Origin: Mauremys mutica
Lineage: Eukaryota > Chordata > Testudines > Geoemydidae
Direction of reading: 5' to 3'
NCBI RefSeq assembly: GCF_020497125.1
Contig: NC_059079.1
Coordinates: 49,983,114 to 50,047,113 of the forward strand
DNA: 64,000 nucleotides
Position 1 is the first letter of the stretch. Every line of letters begins with the position of its first letter. The translations under genes and the position numbers were made by a program. The notes beneath the pieces were generated by a model. It did not search any database. It was not told where the DNA came from and saw nothing but the letters and a program-made list of their open reading frames with translations. Shown piece by piece: positions 5,735 to 63,881 of the stretch.

Positions 5735-6045
5735 ACCAGCGAGCAGCGAGCAGCGTGACCTGTGACTGTTCAGTTTCTTTACAGAGAAGCTGAACCTGCC
5801 CAGTTACTGTTGACTCTCCTGGTTTCTTTATTCATTAAATGTCGCCAGTCATTCCTTCCTCCGGGAAAGCAAGGGCAGACAATCATTTCGATCACGTTTT
5901 CCATGAAATGCCCTGGCACACGCCATAGCGTGGCAACAATGGACCCTATTTTGCCTTTTGTGTATGTCACCGTATGTGTACTGTATGCCGCTGATAGAGG
6001 CGGACCAGCAGCGCTACGCAGCAGCATGCTTATGCTTTTGCATGA

Positions 6046-6800
6046 CAGCAGCGATGGTTACCAGGCATACTGCACCGTCTACCATACCATGAACTGGTAA
6101 GAAGACGGTAATAAGCTGGTCATGGTTACCTGTCCTTTTGCACTGCGCCATTTGGTGCTGTCATAAGTGCCCCTGGTCGATCAGCCAGGGGCGCAAAAGC
6201 AAAATTTGGGAATGACTCCCGAGTCAATCCCTCCTTTTTGGGTATCTAAAAATAGAATCAGTCCTGCCTAGATTATGTGCAAGTGTACTAGAGAACCACT
6301 GTATCATACAACCAGAGACCACAGCTGCTCTCTGTCCAATCCTGCATAAATTTTGAGCTGAACGCTATTCACAGGGTGTGCTCCTGAAACAACCCCAGCT
6401 GTTCATTCCGTTCTTCCCCCAGCCTTCCTGGGTTCCAGTACCATTGTCCCCCCACTTGTGTGATGAAGTAATATAGAATGCATATAGACACAGGTAGTCG
6501 TTTGTGAGAAATGAGTGGAAGGAAGCCTCCAGCTGCAATGATAGTCCAGAGATGACATTAAGGGGTGTGGAGGAGGGAGCCACTCATCCCTCTGCTAGTC
6601 CAGGGGCAATTGAATCTTTTCTTTACAATGAAGGGTGGGGGCTGATGGATCTCAGCCCCCTGTTGCAATGATGAGGACGGTTACCAGCCATACTGCACCA
6701 TCTACCATGAAAAATTAGCAACAGGCGGCCTTGACCGACCGGTCCCAAGCAAGTTGGTACGGTTGTCATGGTTACCAGCCCTTTTGCACTGCCCCATGTG
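6046..6800. repeat. internal direct and inverted duplications of copy 1
   Basis: About 110 bases from 6046 (ggttaccaggcatactgcac ... cccttttgcactgc-like end) recur in direct orientation at about 6668-6800. Next to them, 5966-6012 is an inverted copy of 6889-6938, with the shared string atacggtgacat readable on opposite strands. This shows an internal rearrangement of the element. Confidence 0.65.
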
Positions 6801-7277
6801 CCAATAGGCTGATGATGAGGATGGATTTCCATCGTTTTGTACCATCAGCCATCCATAGCGTGGGGGGAGCAAGGATGTTGGTGTTGAGTGCTGCACCATC
6901 GCGTCTATCTGCAGCATTCAGTACAGATACGGTGACATGTAAAAGAGTCAACAGAGGATTGTTTTCCCTTTAACTTCTGGGGGTCGGGGGGGTGCGTAAA
7001 TTGCCGAGCTATGCCCCGTCCCACCGCGGACACTGTGTTTGACCCTAGAAGCATTTGGAGATCAGCCAAGAATGCAAATGCTTTTCGGAGACAGCAGGAA
7101 CTGTGGGATACCTTGCGTCCTCGTTCCCCCCTCCCTCCATGAGCGTCCATTTGATTCTTTGGCTTTCCGTTACGCTCGTCACGCAGCTGCGTGCTGAGTC
7201 TGTGCTATGCCGTCTGTCCGTTTATTTATTAAAAATACTTTGGACCAGGCGTAACGTAACATTTCTTCCCCTACTTA

Positions 7278-7595
7278 GATGCAGGAGTCTCCGAGCGAGA
7301 TCACCGTGAGGACAGGCACTGAAGGAGATAGAGAGCGCATGCTGCGTGAAATCTAGCACGAACCACGGACCTATGCAGCCGTGCTCTGGGAGGCAGTGCT
7401 CCCTGAATACCGCATGAAAGCCCTGCGCGGAAAAGTGTGCTATCACGGAGCACCCAATAAGGCAGCTCTCCCAGGAACCTCCTGCTGATGCTTATCGATT
7501 AACGGCAGGAGAGCTTCGTGGCGTTCTCCCAGGAGGATTTCTGTTCTATCACCATATATACAGAGACCTCCTTTTCACACACTTCAGATTCCTGT
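7278..7595 (+). pseudogene. opposite-strand exon of Harbinger-like element, copy 1
   Basis: A splice-acceptor-like tract (ttcttcccctacttag) ends just before an ATG that opens a frame on the strand opposite the Myb/SANT gene. The frame reads through ERML, then a TAG stop, then YAAVLWEAVLPEY, GKVCYHG and NKAAL. A second stop and a frame change follow, after which ESF and EDFCSITIY can be read. The same blocks in the same order occur in copy 2 at 42797-43132 (ERML, YAAMLCYAVIPDY, GKVSYHG, NKAVL, ESF, EDFRSIPI). I do not recognise the family. The gene is broken here by stops and a frameshift. Confidence 0.6.
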
Positions 7596-7634
7596 TATAT
7601 TAAGAATAAAAGTTAACATGGTTAAAGCACTTAC

Positions 7635-8133
7635 CGACTGCTCCTACCCCTGATTCAGGATCCGGGTTCCTGGCCGGGGAGGGTTGGTAGGGGATCTCCG
7701 TGAGGGTGATGAAGAGATCCTGGCTGTCGGGGAAACCAGCGTTGTAAGCGCTGTCGCCTGCCTCGTCCTCCACAAACCCTTCCTCATCTTCCCCGTCCGT
7801 GAACATCGTCGAGGAACTGTCCGTCGACACTGTCCCATCATCAGAGTCCATGGTCACTGGTGGGGCAGTGGTGGCAGGCTCCGTAGCGTCCGTTGGCCGC
7901 TTTGATTTTTTGGTAGCCTTGTCTGGGGTCCTTGATTTTCACGCGGCGCTGCGTTGCATGACGGCTGTATCCTCAGTCTGTATCATGGCTTTGGAGACCT
8001 TCTCGTAGGTCTTTGCATTCCGTTCGTTGGAGCGCAGCTCCGAAAGCACAGACTCCTCGCCCCACACACCGATCAGATCCAAGAGTTCCCGGTCAGTCTA
8101 TGCCGGGTCCCTCTTTCTATTCAGAGATTACAT
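7635..8133 (-). pseudogene. Myb/SANT-like transposon protein, copy 1, broken
   Basis: On the minus strand a degenerate start near 8133 leads into a trihelix Myb/SANT-like domain of the Myb_DNA-bind_4 type. Recognisable blocks are DRELLDLIGVWGEESVL, SELRSNERNAKTYEKVSKAM and, after a frameshift at the residues preceding VKIK, QGYQKIKAANGR. The C-terminal part continues with an acidic stretch and GFPDSQDLFITL. The equivalent of a conserved tryptophan near the start is a TAG stop. The exon ends at a GTAAGT donor (7628-7634). Copy 2 encodes the same protein. In related DNA transposons such proteins bind the element ends; that role is inferred, not shown. Confidence 0.7.
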
Positions 8134-8550
8134 GAACTCCTCTGCTGGAGAGCTCTGCATTGCTGCCGGTGCTGCGGAGCTCGCCCCGATGTGCAACCAG
8201 AACGTCAGATTCAAACAGCCCAGACAGGAAAATGAATTCAAATTTTCGCGGGTCATTTCCTGTGTGGCTGGGCAGAGAATCCAAGCTCGGGCTGCTGTCC
8301 AGAGCGTCAACAGAGTGGTGCAGTGTGGGATAGCTCCCGGAGCTACTAAGTTCGATTTCCATCCACACCTAGCCTAATTCGAACTAGCCATGTCGAATTT
8401 AGCCTTACTCCACCTGCCGGGGTGGAGTACCAAATTCGAACTAAAGAGCCCTCTAGTTCGAATTAAATGGCTTCCTGGTGTGGACGGTTGAGCGGTTAGT
8501 TCGAATTAACGCTGCTAAATTCGAATTAAAGTCCTAGTGTAGACCAGGCC

Positions 8551-31074: not shown

Positions 31075-31636
31075 CTACTTAATAAGTGTACTCTCTATGC
31101 CATTATCTAAATCATTGATGAAGATATTGAACAGTCCCAGACCCAGAACTGATCCCTGCAGGACCCCACTCGTTATGCCCTTCCAGCATGACTGTGAATC
31201 ACTCTTTGGGAACGGTTTTCCAACTGGTTTTGCACCCACCTTATAGTAAATCCATCTAGGTTGCATTTCCCCAGTTTGTTTATGAGAAGGTCAAGAAAGA
31301 CAGTATCAAAAGCTTTACTAAAAAGTCAAGATATACCACATCTACCAGTCCCGCCCTATCCACAAGGCATGTTCCCCTGTCAAAGAAAGCTATCAGGCTA
31401 GTTTGACATTATTTGTTCTTGACAAATCCATGCTGACTGTTACTTATCACCTAATTATCTTCTAGATGTTTGCAAATTGATTGCTTAATTATTTGCTCCA
31501 TTATCTTTCTGGTTACAGAAGTTAAGCTGACTGGTCTGTAATTCCCCGGGTTGTCCTTATTTCCCTTTTCATAGACGAGCACAATATTTGCCCTTGTCAT
31601 CTTCTGGAATCTCTCCTGTCTTCCATGACTTTTCAA
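31075..31636 (-). pseudogene. CR1 ORF2 reverse transcriptase, catalytic block deleted
   Basis: Carries KGNKDNPGNYRPVSLTSV in the fingers and [20 protein letters not shown] in motif B. It then passes from GIESTLIK through a stop straight into the C-terminal MKFNKDKCK block. The KFADDTKLGG palm motif and about 35 following codons expected between them are missing, while related copies at 54538 and 62065 retain them. It cannot encode an active enzyme. Confidence 0.85.
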
Positions 31637-35386: not shown

Positions 35387-35505
35387 GGCCTGGTCTACAC
35401 TATACAGTTCGGTCAACATAAGTTGCCTTGTATTGACCTAGCTGTGGAAGTGTCTTCACTTAAATTTGGTTTACACTGAAGTAAGTGCTTCCCTATAAAC
35501 TTGGG
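35387..35505 (+). mobile_element. Harbinger-type MITE, left-end fragment
   Basis: Begins ggcctggtctacactatac and shares aagtgtcttcacttaaattt with the minus strand of the MITE at 63505-63881. Only the first third of the element is present. Confidence 0.65.
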
Positions 35506-40710: not shown

Positions 40711-42177
40711 AACTGCCCTGAAAAAAAGGAAGTTTTTTTCCTAATGTCCAACCTAAACCGCCTTTGCTATAATTTAAGCCCATTGCTTCTTGTCCTATCC
40801 TCAGAGGTTAAGGAGAACAAATTTTCTCTCTTCTCCTTGTGACAACCTTTTATGTACTTGAAAACTCTCATCATGTCCCCTCTCAGTCTACTCTTCTCCA
40901 GACTCACAAACCCAATTTTTTCAATCTTCCCTCATCGATCATGTTTTCCAGACATTTAATATTTTTTATTGCTGTCCTTTGGACTTTCTCCAATTTGTCC
41001 ACATCTTTACTGAATGTGACATCCAGAACTGGACACAATACTCCAGTTGAGACCTAGTCAGCACACAGTAAAGCAGAAGAATTACTTCTCATATCTTGCT
41101 TACAACACTCCAGCTAATATAGCCCAGAATAATATTTGCTTTTTGCAACAGTGTAACACTGTTGAGTCATATTTAGCTATGATCCATTACAACCTCCAGA
41201 ACCCTTTCTGCAGTGCTCCTTCCTAGGCAGTCATTTCCCATTTTGTATGTATGCAACTGATTGTTCCTTCCTAAGTGGAGTACTTTGCATTTGTTCTTAT
41301 TGAATTTCATCCTGTTTACTTAGGACTAACATTCAAATTGGAGGAATAGTCTGATCCTCCAAAGCACTTGCAACCCCTCCCAGCTTGGTATCATCCACAA
41401 ACTTTAAAAGTGTACTTTCTAATGCCATTATCTAAGTCATTGATGAAGGCATTGAACAGAACTGGACCCAGAACTGATACCTGTGGGACCCCACTTGATA
41501 TGTCCTTCCAGCTTGACTGTGAACCACTGATGATTACTCTCTAGGAACAGTTTTCCAACCAGTTATGCACCCACCTTATAGTAGCTCCATCTAGGTTGTA
41601 TTTCCCTAGTTTGTTTATGAGACAGTCATGGGAGATAGTATCAAAAAACCTTCTAAAGTCAAGATATACCACATCTAGTACTTCCCCCATATCCACAGGG
41701 ATTGTTACCCCATCAAAGAAAGCTATTAGGTTGGTTTGACATGATTTGTTCTTGACAAATCCATGCTGACTTACTTATCACTTTATTATCTTCTAGGCCT
41801 AGTCTACACTACGATTTTAGGTCGAATTTAGCAGCGTTACCTTGATTTAAGCATGGATCCATCCACATGACAAAGCCCTTTTTTTCGACTTAAAGGGCTC
41901 TTTAAATTGATTTCTTTACTCCACCTCCGACGAAGGGATTAGCACTGAAAATCGGCCTTGCTGGGTCAAATTTGGGGTAGTGTGGACGCAATTTGACAGT
42001 ATTGGCCTCCAGGAGCTATCTCAGAGTGCTCCATTGTGACCACTCTGGACAGCGCTCTCAATTCAGATGCACTGGCCAGGTAGACAGGAAAAGGCCCGCA
42101 AACTTTTGAATCTAATTTCTTGTTTGGCCAGCGTTGCAAGGTGCAGGTGAGTGCAGATCTCATCAGCAGAGGTGATC

Positions 42178-42709
42178 ATGATGGAGTCCCAGGATCGCAA
42201 AAGAGCTCCAGCATGGACCGAACAGGAGGTACGGGATATTCTCGCCATATGGGGAGATGAATCCGTGCTAGCTGAACTCCGTTCCGGTAAACAAAATGCC
42301 AAAACATTAGAAAAAGTCTCAGAGGGCATGAAGGACAGAGGCCATAACAGGGATGCACAGCAGTGCCACGTGAAAATTAAGGAGCTAAGGCAAGCCTACC
42401 AAAAAAACAGAGAGGCAAATGGCTGCTCCGGATCAGAGCCCCAAACATGCTGCTTCTATGATGAGCTGCATGCCATGCTAGGGGGTGCAGCCACCACTAC
42501 CCCAACCCTGCGCTTTGACTCTGTCAATGGAGAATCATGCAACACAGAAGCGGGTTTGTGGGATAAGGAAGATAGCTCACCGCAAGGAAGCAGAGAAACC
42601 AGTTTCCCCAACAGCCAAGATATGTTTCTCACCCTGGAGCTGGAGCAAGTAACCCCCGGACTCACCCAAGGCGTGCTCCTGGACCCTGAAGGCGTAGAAG
42701 GGACTTCTG
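42178..42709 (+). pseudogene. Myb/SANT-like transposon protein, exon 1
   Basis: The open frame starts at 42151, but the ATGATG at 42178 gives MESQDRKRAPAWTEQEV and is the likely start. A trihelix Myb/SANT-like domain follows: EVRDILAIWGDESVLAEL, QNAKTLEKVSEGMKDRGHNR, then QCHVKIKELRQAYQKNREAN and FYDELHAMLGG. An acidic linker and SFPNSQDMFLTLELE follow. A donor-like gtgaatg begins at 42710, and phase fits exon 2. This exon is uninterrupted, but exon 2 is broken. It probably bound the element's own ends; this is inference from the family. Confidence 0.8.
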
Positions 42710-42796
42710 GTGAATGTACCTTTGTAAATATTACACATGGCTTAAAAGCAAGCATGTTTAATGATTAATTTGCTCTGGCATTCACAGCCAGTATAG

Positions 42797-43132
42797 CTAC
42801 TGGAAAAGTCTGTTAACATGTATGGGGATGGAGCGGAAATCCTCCAGGGACATCTCCATAAAACTCTCCTGGATGTACTCCCAAAGCCTTTGCATAAGGT
42901 TTCTGGAGAGGACGGCCTTATTCCATCTGCCATGGTAGGACACTTTACCATGCCAGGCCAGTAGCACGTAGTCAGGAATCACTGCATAACAAAGCATGGC
43001 AGCGTATGGTCCTGGTGTTTCCTGGCATCCAAACAACATCCGTTCTTTATTTCTCTGTGTTATCCTCAGGAGAGTGATATCACCTGGTTGAAATAGGGTG
43101 CTTTTATTAAGGGGACATTCAGAGGTGCCCAT
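42797..43132 (-). CDS. opposite-strand frame in the Myb/SANT intron
   Basis: A 111-codon open frame with blocks QPGDITLLRITQRNKERML, GPYAAMLCYAVIPDYVLLAW, HGKVSYHGRWNKAVL and FMEMSLEDFRSIPIHVNRLF. It lies in the intron of the Myb/SANT gene on the opposite strand. The same blocks occur at the equivalent place of copy 1 (7278-7595) in decayed form, which supports real coding rather than chance. I see no signal peptide, membrane segment or motif I can name. The upstream part of the protein was probably separated by the hAT insertion at 43331 or lies on another exon. Its function is unknown. Confidence 0.55.
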   Translation of the reverse strand: MGTSECPLNKSTLFQPGDITLLRITQRNKERMLFGCQETPGPYAAMLCYAVIPDYVLLAWHGKVSYHGRWNKAVLSRNLMQRLWEYIQESFMEMSLEDFRSIPIHVNRLFQ

Positions 43133-43330
43133 TCCTGCTCGGCTGTTTGGCTGTGGCTGAACACAAATGGTCCCCCGCTGTTAGCCATGCAGTGGTGGGA
43201 GGGGTGAAGCGTGAGTGATCTCTCACACCAAACCGGCAGGCCCTCAATACAAGAGGCAAAATGTGACCTTGTAACGAAAACACATGTGCTGTGTAATGTG
43301 AACAGCAAGGTTTAATATGAAAGAGTGTAC

Positions 43331-43722
43331 CAGGGCCGCCCAGAGGATTCCCGGGGCCTGGGGTCTTCGGCGTCGGGGGGCCCTGCTTCGGCGGTAATTC
43401 GGCGTCGGGGGGCCCTTCCGTTCTGGGACCTGCCAAAGTGTCCCGAAGACCCGCGGTGGGGACCCCCCGCCGCCGAATTGCCACTGAAGCAGGACCCGCC
43501 GCCGAAGTGCAGCCAAGTCTTTGGCGGTAATTCGTCGGCGGGGGGTCCTTCCACCCCGGAGTGGAAGAAGCTCCAGGGGCCCAGCCCCACAAGAGTTTTC
43601 CAGGCCTCCCAGAGCGAGTGAAGGACCCTGCTCCAGGGGCCCTGAAAAACTCTTGTGGGGGCCCCTGCGGGGCCCGGGGCCTGGGGCAAATTGCCCCTCT
43701 TACACTCCCCCGGGTGGCCCTG
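43331..43722. mobile_element. hAT-type MITE in Harbinger element, 392 bp
   Basis: Begins cagggccgcccagagg and ends ccgggtggccctg. Exact 8-bp duplications gagtgtac lie at 43323-43330 and 43723-43730. It is very GC-rich, with repeated gcggtaattcggcg-like strings and inverted segments (aaaactcttgtgggg against cccacaagagtttt). It gives spurious long frames on both strands. Confidence 0.92.
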
Positions 43723-43786
43723 GAGTGTACCCATTTTTCTCTAAAATGTGTCTTTTTAACTACCACTCTCCCTTTTCCTCCACCAG

Positions 43787-44230
43787 CTACAAATGTTTCT
43801 CCTTCACAGAGGCTAATGAAGATTAGAAGGTGAAAAAAAACGCACTTGGGATGAAATGTTCTCTGAGCTTCTGCTGTCCCCCCACACTGACAGAGCAGAA
43901 TGCGTGGAGGCAGACAATGTCAGAGTGAAGGAAAGCACAATATGAACGTGAGGAGAGGTGGCAGAAGAGAGTAAGTGGCAGGCTGAAGATGATAGGTGGC
44001 GTCAGCTTGCTGACAGAAGGCAAGAGTCAATGCTCAGGCTCCTGGAAGATCAAATTCATATGCTCCAGCATATGGTTGAGCTTCAGGAAAGGCAGCAGGA
44101 GCACAGACTGCCACTACAGCCCCTGTATAACCAACAGACTTTCACGGGGGGGCTGACGACATGTACCCAGAATCACCCGCAACAGTGTTTTTGCCCCATC
44201 AGACATTGGGATATCAACCCATAATTCCAG
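43787..44230 (+). pseudogene. Myb/SANT-like transposon protein, exon 2, frameshifted
   Basis: A pyrimidine tract ending ccaccag (43786) precedes the exon, which joins exon 1 in phase as ATNVSPSQRLMKIRR and then stops. Two frame changes later the reading continues as KKRTWDEMFSELLLSPHTD, then EESKWQAEDDRWRQLADRRQ, SMLRLLEDQIHMLQHMVELQ and EHRLPLQPL. The E/R/Q-rich, heptad-like pattern suggests a coiled coil for dimerisation. The frameshifts make this copy non-functional. Confidence 0.7.
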
Positions 44231-44900
44231 TGGGCGGTGGAGACTGCAGGAACTGTGGGATAGCTACCCACAGTGCAACGCTCCTAAAGTCAACACTAGC
44301 TTCAGTACTGTGGATGCAGTCCACTGACTTAATGCACTTAAAGCATTTTTTTTGTGGGGACACACACAATCGACTGTATAAAAACGATTTCTAAAGAACC
44401 GACTTCTATAAATTCGACCTAATTTCGTAGTGTAGACATACCCTAATATGTCTGCAAATTGATTGCTTAATTATTTGTTCCATTATCTTTCCGGGTACTG
44501 ACGTTAAACTGTCTGGGCTAATACCCTGGGTTGTCTTATTTCCCTTTTATAGATTGGCACTATATTTTCCATTCCTCTGGAATCTCTCCTGACTTGCATT
44601 ACTTTTCAAAGATAATCACTAATGGCTCTGATCTTTCCTCAGTCAGTTCCTTGAGTATTCTAGGGTTTATTTCATCAGGCCCTCGTGACTTGAAGACATC
44701 TAATTTGTCTAAGTAATTTTTAAAAACTTATTCTTTCCCTATTTTAGCCTCTGATCTGCCCCCTTTTTCACTGACATTCACTATGTTAGATGTCTAATCG
44801 CTACTAATCTTTTTGGTGAGAAACAAAGTCATTCAACACTTATGCTATTTCCAGATTTTCTATTATTGTTTTTTCCTCCCTCATTGGGAAATGGGAGGAA

Positions 44901-63504: not shown

Positions 63505-63881
63505 TATGAGAATTATGTCGACCTAAATTATGTCGGCATACAGTTATTTAATTGCTTGTGTATGCCCACATGGCTCCTTGTGCCAGCGGTGCACATCCTC
63601 ACCACAAGTGCTTGTACTAATTGTAATGTCAGTGTGGGGCATTGAGGGACAGTTTCTGTAGACCAATAACAGTCTACATAAGCAATGCAGTGTCTATACT
63701 GACTCTGCGTGAACCTAATTACATCCACCATGAATCTACGCTGCTCGAGGAGCTGGTGCTACTAAATTGACATACAGAGACACTTACATTAGTGGGAGCC
63801 AAATTTAAGTGAAGACACTTCCACAACTAAGTCATTGCGAGGCAGCTTATAACAACCTAACCATGTGATATAGACCAGGCC
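63505..63881 (-). mobile_element. Harbinger-type MITE
   Basis: The right end ggcc at 63881 reads inward on the minus strand as GGCCTGGTCTATATCAC and is followed by tta, a possible TWA duplication. The left side has tatgtcgacctaaattatgt. Non-coding. It shares about 110 bases with 35387-35505. Confidence 0.65.

Follow-up and report, generated by a model that had tools for sequence, protein, structure and literature searches.

The turtle Mauremys mutica carries, in the 64,000-nucleotide stretch analysed here (positions 49,983,114 to 50,047,113 of contig NC_059079.1; the window), two copies of a Harbinger-type DNA transposon, both old, and in each a reading frame lies antisense beside the first exon of the element's Myb/SANT gene. 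We consider it probable that this frame is a genuine protein-coding exon belonging to a turtle PIF/Harbinger-type (PHIS) transposon, that it is the 3′-terminal exon of the transposase transcription unit opposite Myb/SANT, and that it encodes a BEN-like domain. This reading is built on homology, the open frame, selection between the two copies, the fold match of a structure prediction, and the strand and order of the parts in gene models.

Harbinger-type groups, as described in PMC4482050, mostly have two open reading frames (ORFs), a DDE transposase with either a Myb/SANT protein or, in ISL2EU, YqaJ; Spy has one. They are usually presented as systems of two proteins, with the Myb/SANT protein assisting the transposase in getting to the nucleus and to the element's ends: in the account of PMC9710019, the Myb-like partner interacts with the transposase and both then enter the nucleus, and the Harbinger3_DR partner recognises a subterminal motif. 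A previous reading of the window (the sequence-only reading) had proposed that this family once made two proteins from opposite-strand units. Selection in the frame, independent turtle gene models and a same-strand remnant of the transposase start in copy 1 all favour coding units on opposite strands, but the number two gives way to at least three coding parts (transposase, Myb/SANT and the BEN-like exon), with the opposite strand being the transposase side. Compared with the two-ORF groups, the turtle element has a third coding part, a BEN-like exon that lies antisense next to Myb exon 1.

An antisense frame conserved between two copies

In copy 2 the minus-strand frame is real, being open from 43180 to 42797 (127 codons counted from the previous stop). 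It had been described as a 111-codon frame beginning at 43132; that frame is open, but its ATG is probably not ancestral, because copy 2 seems to lack bases just before DITLL. Complete relatives start M(N/S)DITLL or similar and end near ...LFQ, and judging from their proteins the stretch from ATG 43132 through to DITLL is probably an accident of copy 2. The part homologous to turtle proteins spans 43084-42800 and is followed by the stop at 42799-42797; the coding exon is placed at 42797..43081 on the minus strand, stop included, its start codon not preserved. In copy 1 the same arrangement of Myb exon 1 and opposite-strand frame recurs with its orientation reversed, the exon lying at 7279..7577 on the plus strand, where one in-frame stop (7354-7356) and a 1-base gap near 7470 interrupt it. 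The idea that each copy has its own stops and frameshifts holds for copy 1, with one of each, and not for copy 2, which has none internal over the homologous part.

The acceptor-like tract noticed ahead of the copy 1 exon is confirmed: TTTCTTCCCCTACTTAG is followed directly by ATG at the junction 7278/7279, with the acceptor-like CTACTTAG ending at 7278. Beyond the exon, copy 1 has AATAAA at 7605..7610 (plus strand), before the Myb donor, and copy 2 has the poly(A)-signal-like ATTAAA at 42757..42762 (minus strand), just past the BEN-like stop. These candidate signals, both on the exon's strand, fit a 3′-terminal exon together with the copy 1 acceptor tract.

Amino-acid blocks shared by the copies are well above chance, with local BLOSUM62 scores of 118 and 52 for the two pieces of copy 1 that none of 5000 shuffles of either piece reached (best 47 and 42). 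Over 78 aligned codons the copies differ at 30, 19 and 37 first, second and third positions, an excess at third positions (P 0.010). For the antisense frame of the two window copies, the NG86 method applied to 77 codons (the stop-holding codon left out) gives a nonsynonymous rate (dN) of 0.39, below the synonymous rate (dS) of 1.19, a synonymous excess with dN/dS about 0.32. Identical residues number 38 of 77, against a neutral mean of 27.6 in 20,000 simulations matched for the number of differences and for transitions (largest 39, P 0.0004). By this pattern of differences, the dN/dS value and the excess of residue identity over simulation, purifying selection has acted on the frame between the two copies, though less tightly than on Myb: across 38 codons of Myb exon 1 in the same copies the differences are 9/7/26 by position and dN is 0.27, with dS saturated and not computable. 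Third positions differ less in the BEN-like exon (37/78) than in Myb exon 1 (26/38), perhaps through exchange between subfamilies.

Could a splicing enhancer or regulatory sequence be what is conserved, the frame being an accident? The exon does adjoin the Myb splice donor. The codon-position pattern and the excess amino-acid identity make this explanation very improbable, as do the about 95 codons that stay open in relatives of several subfamilies. Openness by chance is infrequent (a given frame stays open in 38 of 5000 shuffled versions of the 285-base exon), and the Myb-sense frames across the exon all hold stops (1, 3 and 4 in copy 2; 5, 2 and 3 in copy 1).

A protein search with the copy 2 ORF gave three matches, the nearest named relatives being turtle proteins, and a profile with copy 1 added reached 20 proteins at E up to 10. 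Fourteen of these are named, all from turtles (Malaclemys, Chelonia, Pangshura, Chrysemys, Lepidochelys, Mauremys and Gopherus); in P0016 to P0020 the match covers part of the exon only. The copy 2 exon is 73-77% identical to P0001 (Malaclemys) and P0002 (Chelonia), and amino-acid identity between subfamilies is 46-50%. A viral-contig scan with P0001 found no locus, none of its 7 pattern matches being confirmed.

The confinement of named matches to turtles might point to a piece of a host gene, or a host exon, that one element family picked up and carries passively. DNA transposons do acquire extra genes, other Harbinger lineages among them, as with the TET/JBP and SET genes described in PMC12730594. 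Yet two diverged copies keep the frame with a low dN/dS, diverged subfamilies are still open, and no close host relative appears among the 20 profile matches, so we regard passive carriage as quite unlikely. Because of that dN/dS and the open frames across subfamilies, selection seems to have maintained the frame as the family transposed.

Relation to the Myb/SANT and transposase genes

The BEN-like exon adjoins Myb exon 1 and most likely lies inside the Myb intron. Myb exon 1 of copy 2 (42178..42709, plus strand) matches PF13837 Myb_DNA-bind_4 (E 3.4e-17) and ends at a putative donor, TCTG/GTGAAT; its degraded counterpart in copy 1 (7635..8133, minus strand; 65% DNA identity to copy 2) gives a PF13837 fragment under the cut-off (E 0.0015) and ends at the donor-like CAGTCG/GTAAGTGC. 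The intronic position proposed in the sequence-only reading is thus backed by donor-like sites in both copies; its downstream border depends on a degraded segment at 43810..44224 (plus strand), which we take to be Myb exon 2 of copy 2, with a frame at 43952-44224, a putative acceptor (TTCACAG at 43809) and no Pfam match in that frame. A nested insert resembling a miniature inverted-repeat transposable element occupies 43330-43723 of the presumed intron, with ends CCAGGGCCGCCC and GGGTGGCCCTGG and AGTGTA on both flanks.

Five of the 20 profile matches (P0004, P0008, P0010, P0012 and P0015) combine parts of the transposase with the exon. P0010 holds it together with a DDE_Tnp_4 transposase (PF13359, E 3.7e-7), and P0015, from Chelonia, runs on into sequence antisense to Myb exon 1 and to its leader. 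In copy 1, on the same strand as the BEN-like exon and upstream of it, there is a remnant of the start of the transposase gene (5837..5950, plus strand; ATG 5939), matched by residues 15-53 of P0074 (E 3.7e-7 within copy 1), by P0034 (E 5e-4) and more weakly by others. Because of these gene models, the continuation of P0015 and the copy 1 remnant, the order on the exon's strand is most likely transposase start, BEN-like exon, antisense of Myb exon 1, terminal inverted repeat (TIR). Copy 2 has a weak possible trace of a transposase 5′ exon at 44147..44206 (minus strand), antisense to the putative Myb exon 2, which is matched within the element by P0074 of Natator (residues 1-23, E 4e-4). P0074 is the only one of 119 proteins to match it, and a start M.DGAK occurs in 2 of 139 (P0024 and P0074); the trace is a weak pointer to a transposase leader that begins on the strand opposite the putative Myb exon 2. 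With 139 proteins as queries, tblastn detected no transposase body in either copy and gave short weak matches only elsewhere in the window.

A transposase-plus-exon query returned 696 matches, of which the 120 listed include 119 new proteins. Judged from these sequences, the exon is separate from, or alternative to, the full-length transposase, because none of the 119 new transposase-related proteins among the matches listed holds it while 27 of them reach the transposase C-terminus. The possibility that the exon is simply the ordinary transposase C-terminus was considered and rejected; the C-termini end ...REALKTSFMTGQATV or similar.

A plausible alternative, though not the one we favour, is that the exon is only an alternative tail of the transposase that yields a truncated regulator, with no separate BEN-like protein. 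Splice-variant repressors are known in other DNA transposons. The five transposase-joined models speak for such a tail, as do in-frame joins of the exon to host exons, whereas P0001, P0002 and P0014 reach the exon without any matched transposase part, P0009 and P0013 are stand-alone predicted ORFs that start at or close to the exon start, and the transposase junctions vary between the exon-joined models.

On our preferred reading of a 3′-terminal exon with a BEN-like domain, the exon, equipped with an acceptor site, a stop and a poly(A)-signal-like hexamer of its own, would end the transposase-side transcription unit. The domain, if spliced and translated as proposed, could begin at its own ATG or be appended to an upstream exon (the 5′ leader or the transposase N-terminus), and would most likely serve the element as an accessory DNA- or chromatin-binding protein. 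Where spliced to the transposase N-terminus, it would replace the catalytic DDE part, and the product may bind DNA without catalysis, which would make it a candidate regulator or repressor.

Some gene models touch the transposase itself. Turtle models named MIX23, TTLL9, MCUR1, RNF144B, TCEA1 and HDAC8 match the family transposase (P0038, P0043, P0048, P0053, P0102, P0111 and P0139); P0038, P0043, P0048 and P0053 have the leader LPEANP in common, a sign that the transposase start, too, may be captured as an exon. P0083, P0098 and P0127 have a common alternative transposase tail that weakly matches the antisense of copy 1 Myb exon 1 (7837-7902, E 0.007-0.013).

Predicted BEN-like fold and fusions in host gene models

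The sequence-only reading could not assign the exon's protein, and structure prediction now gives it a BEN-like fold: a domain of ~95 residues is predicted to form five helices matching BEN domains, with 6-20% identity to the BEN entries when structurally aligned. It is by predicted fold alone that we call the protein BEN-like. Eleven trimmed members searched at E up to 10, with filters that drop most weak matches, gave no BEN sequence-profile match, and neither did profile searches of the PDB. Pfam has no family for the exon, giving weak hits to DUF416, CDH, DUF6206, Gp_UL130 and Sec-ASP3, each in one or two members, and PDB sequence searches returned weak unrelated matches only (chlorite dismutase, TmcAL, ribosomal eL34 and a putative transmembrane protein), with none for A3.

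The domain shares with BEN-domain proteins (BEND3, BANP, BEND6, NACC1, and Drosophila insv and Bsg25A), as described in PMC11472053, the five-helix fold and the loop between helices 3 and 4. This α3-α4 loop is basic and conserved among members. Unlike those proteins, the turtle domain is encoded by a mobile element, has no Pfam hit and ends at helix 5, which is not basic (1.5 K/R and 2.5 D/E per sequence, variable) and lacks conserved arginines. The missing arginines, the absence of sequence-profile support and the structure-search tool's own caution on middling Z scores for helical models would all suit a helical domain that resembles BEN through a common arrangement and whose function is unrelated to DNA, an explanation that we hold unlikely. 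There is a precedent for recognising BEN from predicted structure and not from sequence: the BEN domain of C. elegans LIN-14, according to PMC10080584, was missed by sequence homology, found by AlphaFold and supported by mutating helix 5 arginines. LIN-14 differs from the turtle domain in being a host transcription factor with those arginines and tested DNA binding (PMC10080584).

In predicted turtle gene models host exons, too, run in frame into the exon. It forms the end of four host gene models, Rab-3C isoform X3, CENP-Q isoform X3 (Chrysemys), CDK6 isoform X2 (Malaclemys) and glycine transporter 1-like (Mauremys), whose host domains are seen by Pfam. Such fusions, as they appear in gene models, would be the expected outcome when a working acceptor, stop and poly(A) signal land in an intron. 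A bolder proposal, which we put forward tentatively and think somewhat doubtful, is that the exon is a third, BEN-type DNA-binding gene antisense in the Myb intron; that the genes interleave, the transposase leader lying antisense to Myb exon 2 and the BEN-like exon in the Myb intron; that splicing swaps the DDE part for the BEN-like domain to make a regulator; and that the exon repeatedly tails host genes, as in the four above. A third protein of this kind would give a DNA transposon a chromatin-type DNA-binding factor and a concrete case of intron-nested, opposite-strand genes. The host tails would be a route to new DNA-binding fusions, and the exon a possible mobile source of BEN-like domains for hosts; with the host gene models as a guide, turtle RNA would allow a direct test of exon capture.

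In the literature listings searched, which leave most subscription papers and Repbase outside their coverage, no Harbinger element is described as encoding a BEN protein. In the available text of a teleost Harbinger survey (PMC9179366), third ORF, additional ORF and antisense do not occur. The TET/JBP-carrying fungal Harbinger elements (PHISTA), as described in PMC12730594, also encode a protein beyond the usual pair and have a TA target duplication; they differ in being fungal, in that the extra gene is an enzyme, and in a third protein without Myb/SANT.

The two elements in the window

Copy 2 (41796..44443, Myb on the plus strand) has TIRs at both ends, GGCCTAGTCTACACTACG at 41796-41813 and CGTAGTGTAGACATACCC at 44426-44443, which start GG as in PHIS transposons. 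TA stands on each flank; of the 3-bp target site duplication expected for a PHIS transposon, the third base is mismatched (CTA / TAA). Its insertion site is a repeat, presumably a CR1 LINE (long interspersed nuclear element), with a paralogous repeat at 31322-31537 that has no element and reads CTAG. Copy 1, with Myb on the minus strand, has a single recognisable end, an exact GGCCTGGTCTACACTA on the Myb side (8535..8550, minus strand). DNA identity between the copies is 65% (438/677) over a stretch that starts at the TIR and enters Myb exon 1; in a block covering most of the frame it is 68% (136/200). The element is filed as PHIS-type by its TIRs, its Myb gene and, in relatives, its transposase; it shares GG-starting TIRs, the Myb/SANT second gene and, in relatives, a DDE_Tnp_4 transposase with Nuwa-like two-gene elements. 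NuwaII was reported in one turtle by Han et al. 2015 (PMC4482050).

An 84-base stretch of the right end of copy 2 (44182-44265) recurs at 7030-7113 with 71% identity and the opposite orientation relative to Myb, and this reversed recurrence raises the possibility that copy 1 combines two elements. On its left side, copy 1 has an inverted pair (5945-6031 / 6871-6957, 72%) beside direct repeats at 6053, 6112, 6676 and 6758, and these occupy the expected place of the transposase body. Two more TIR-like ends, at 35387-35402 and 63866-63881, perhaps belong to related short elements.
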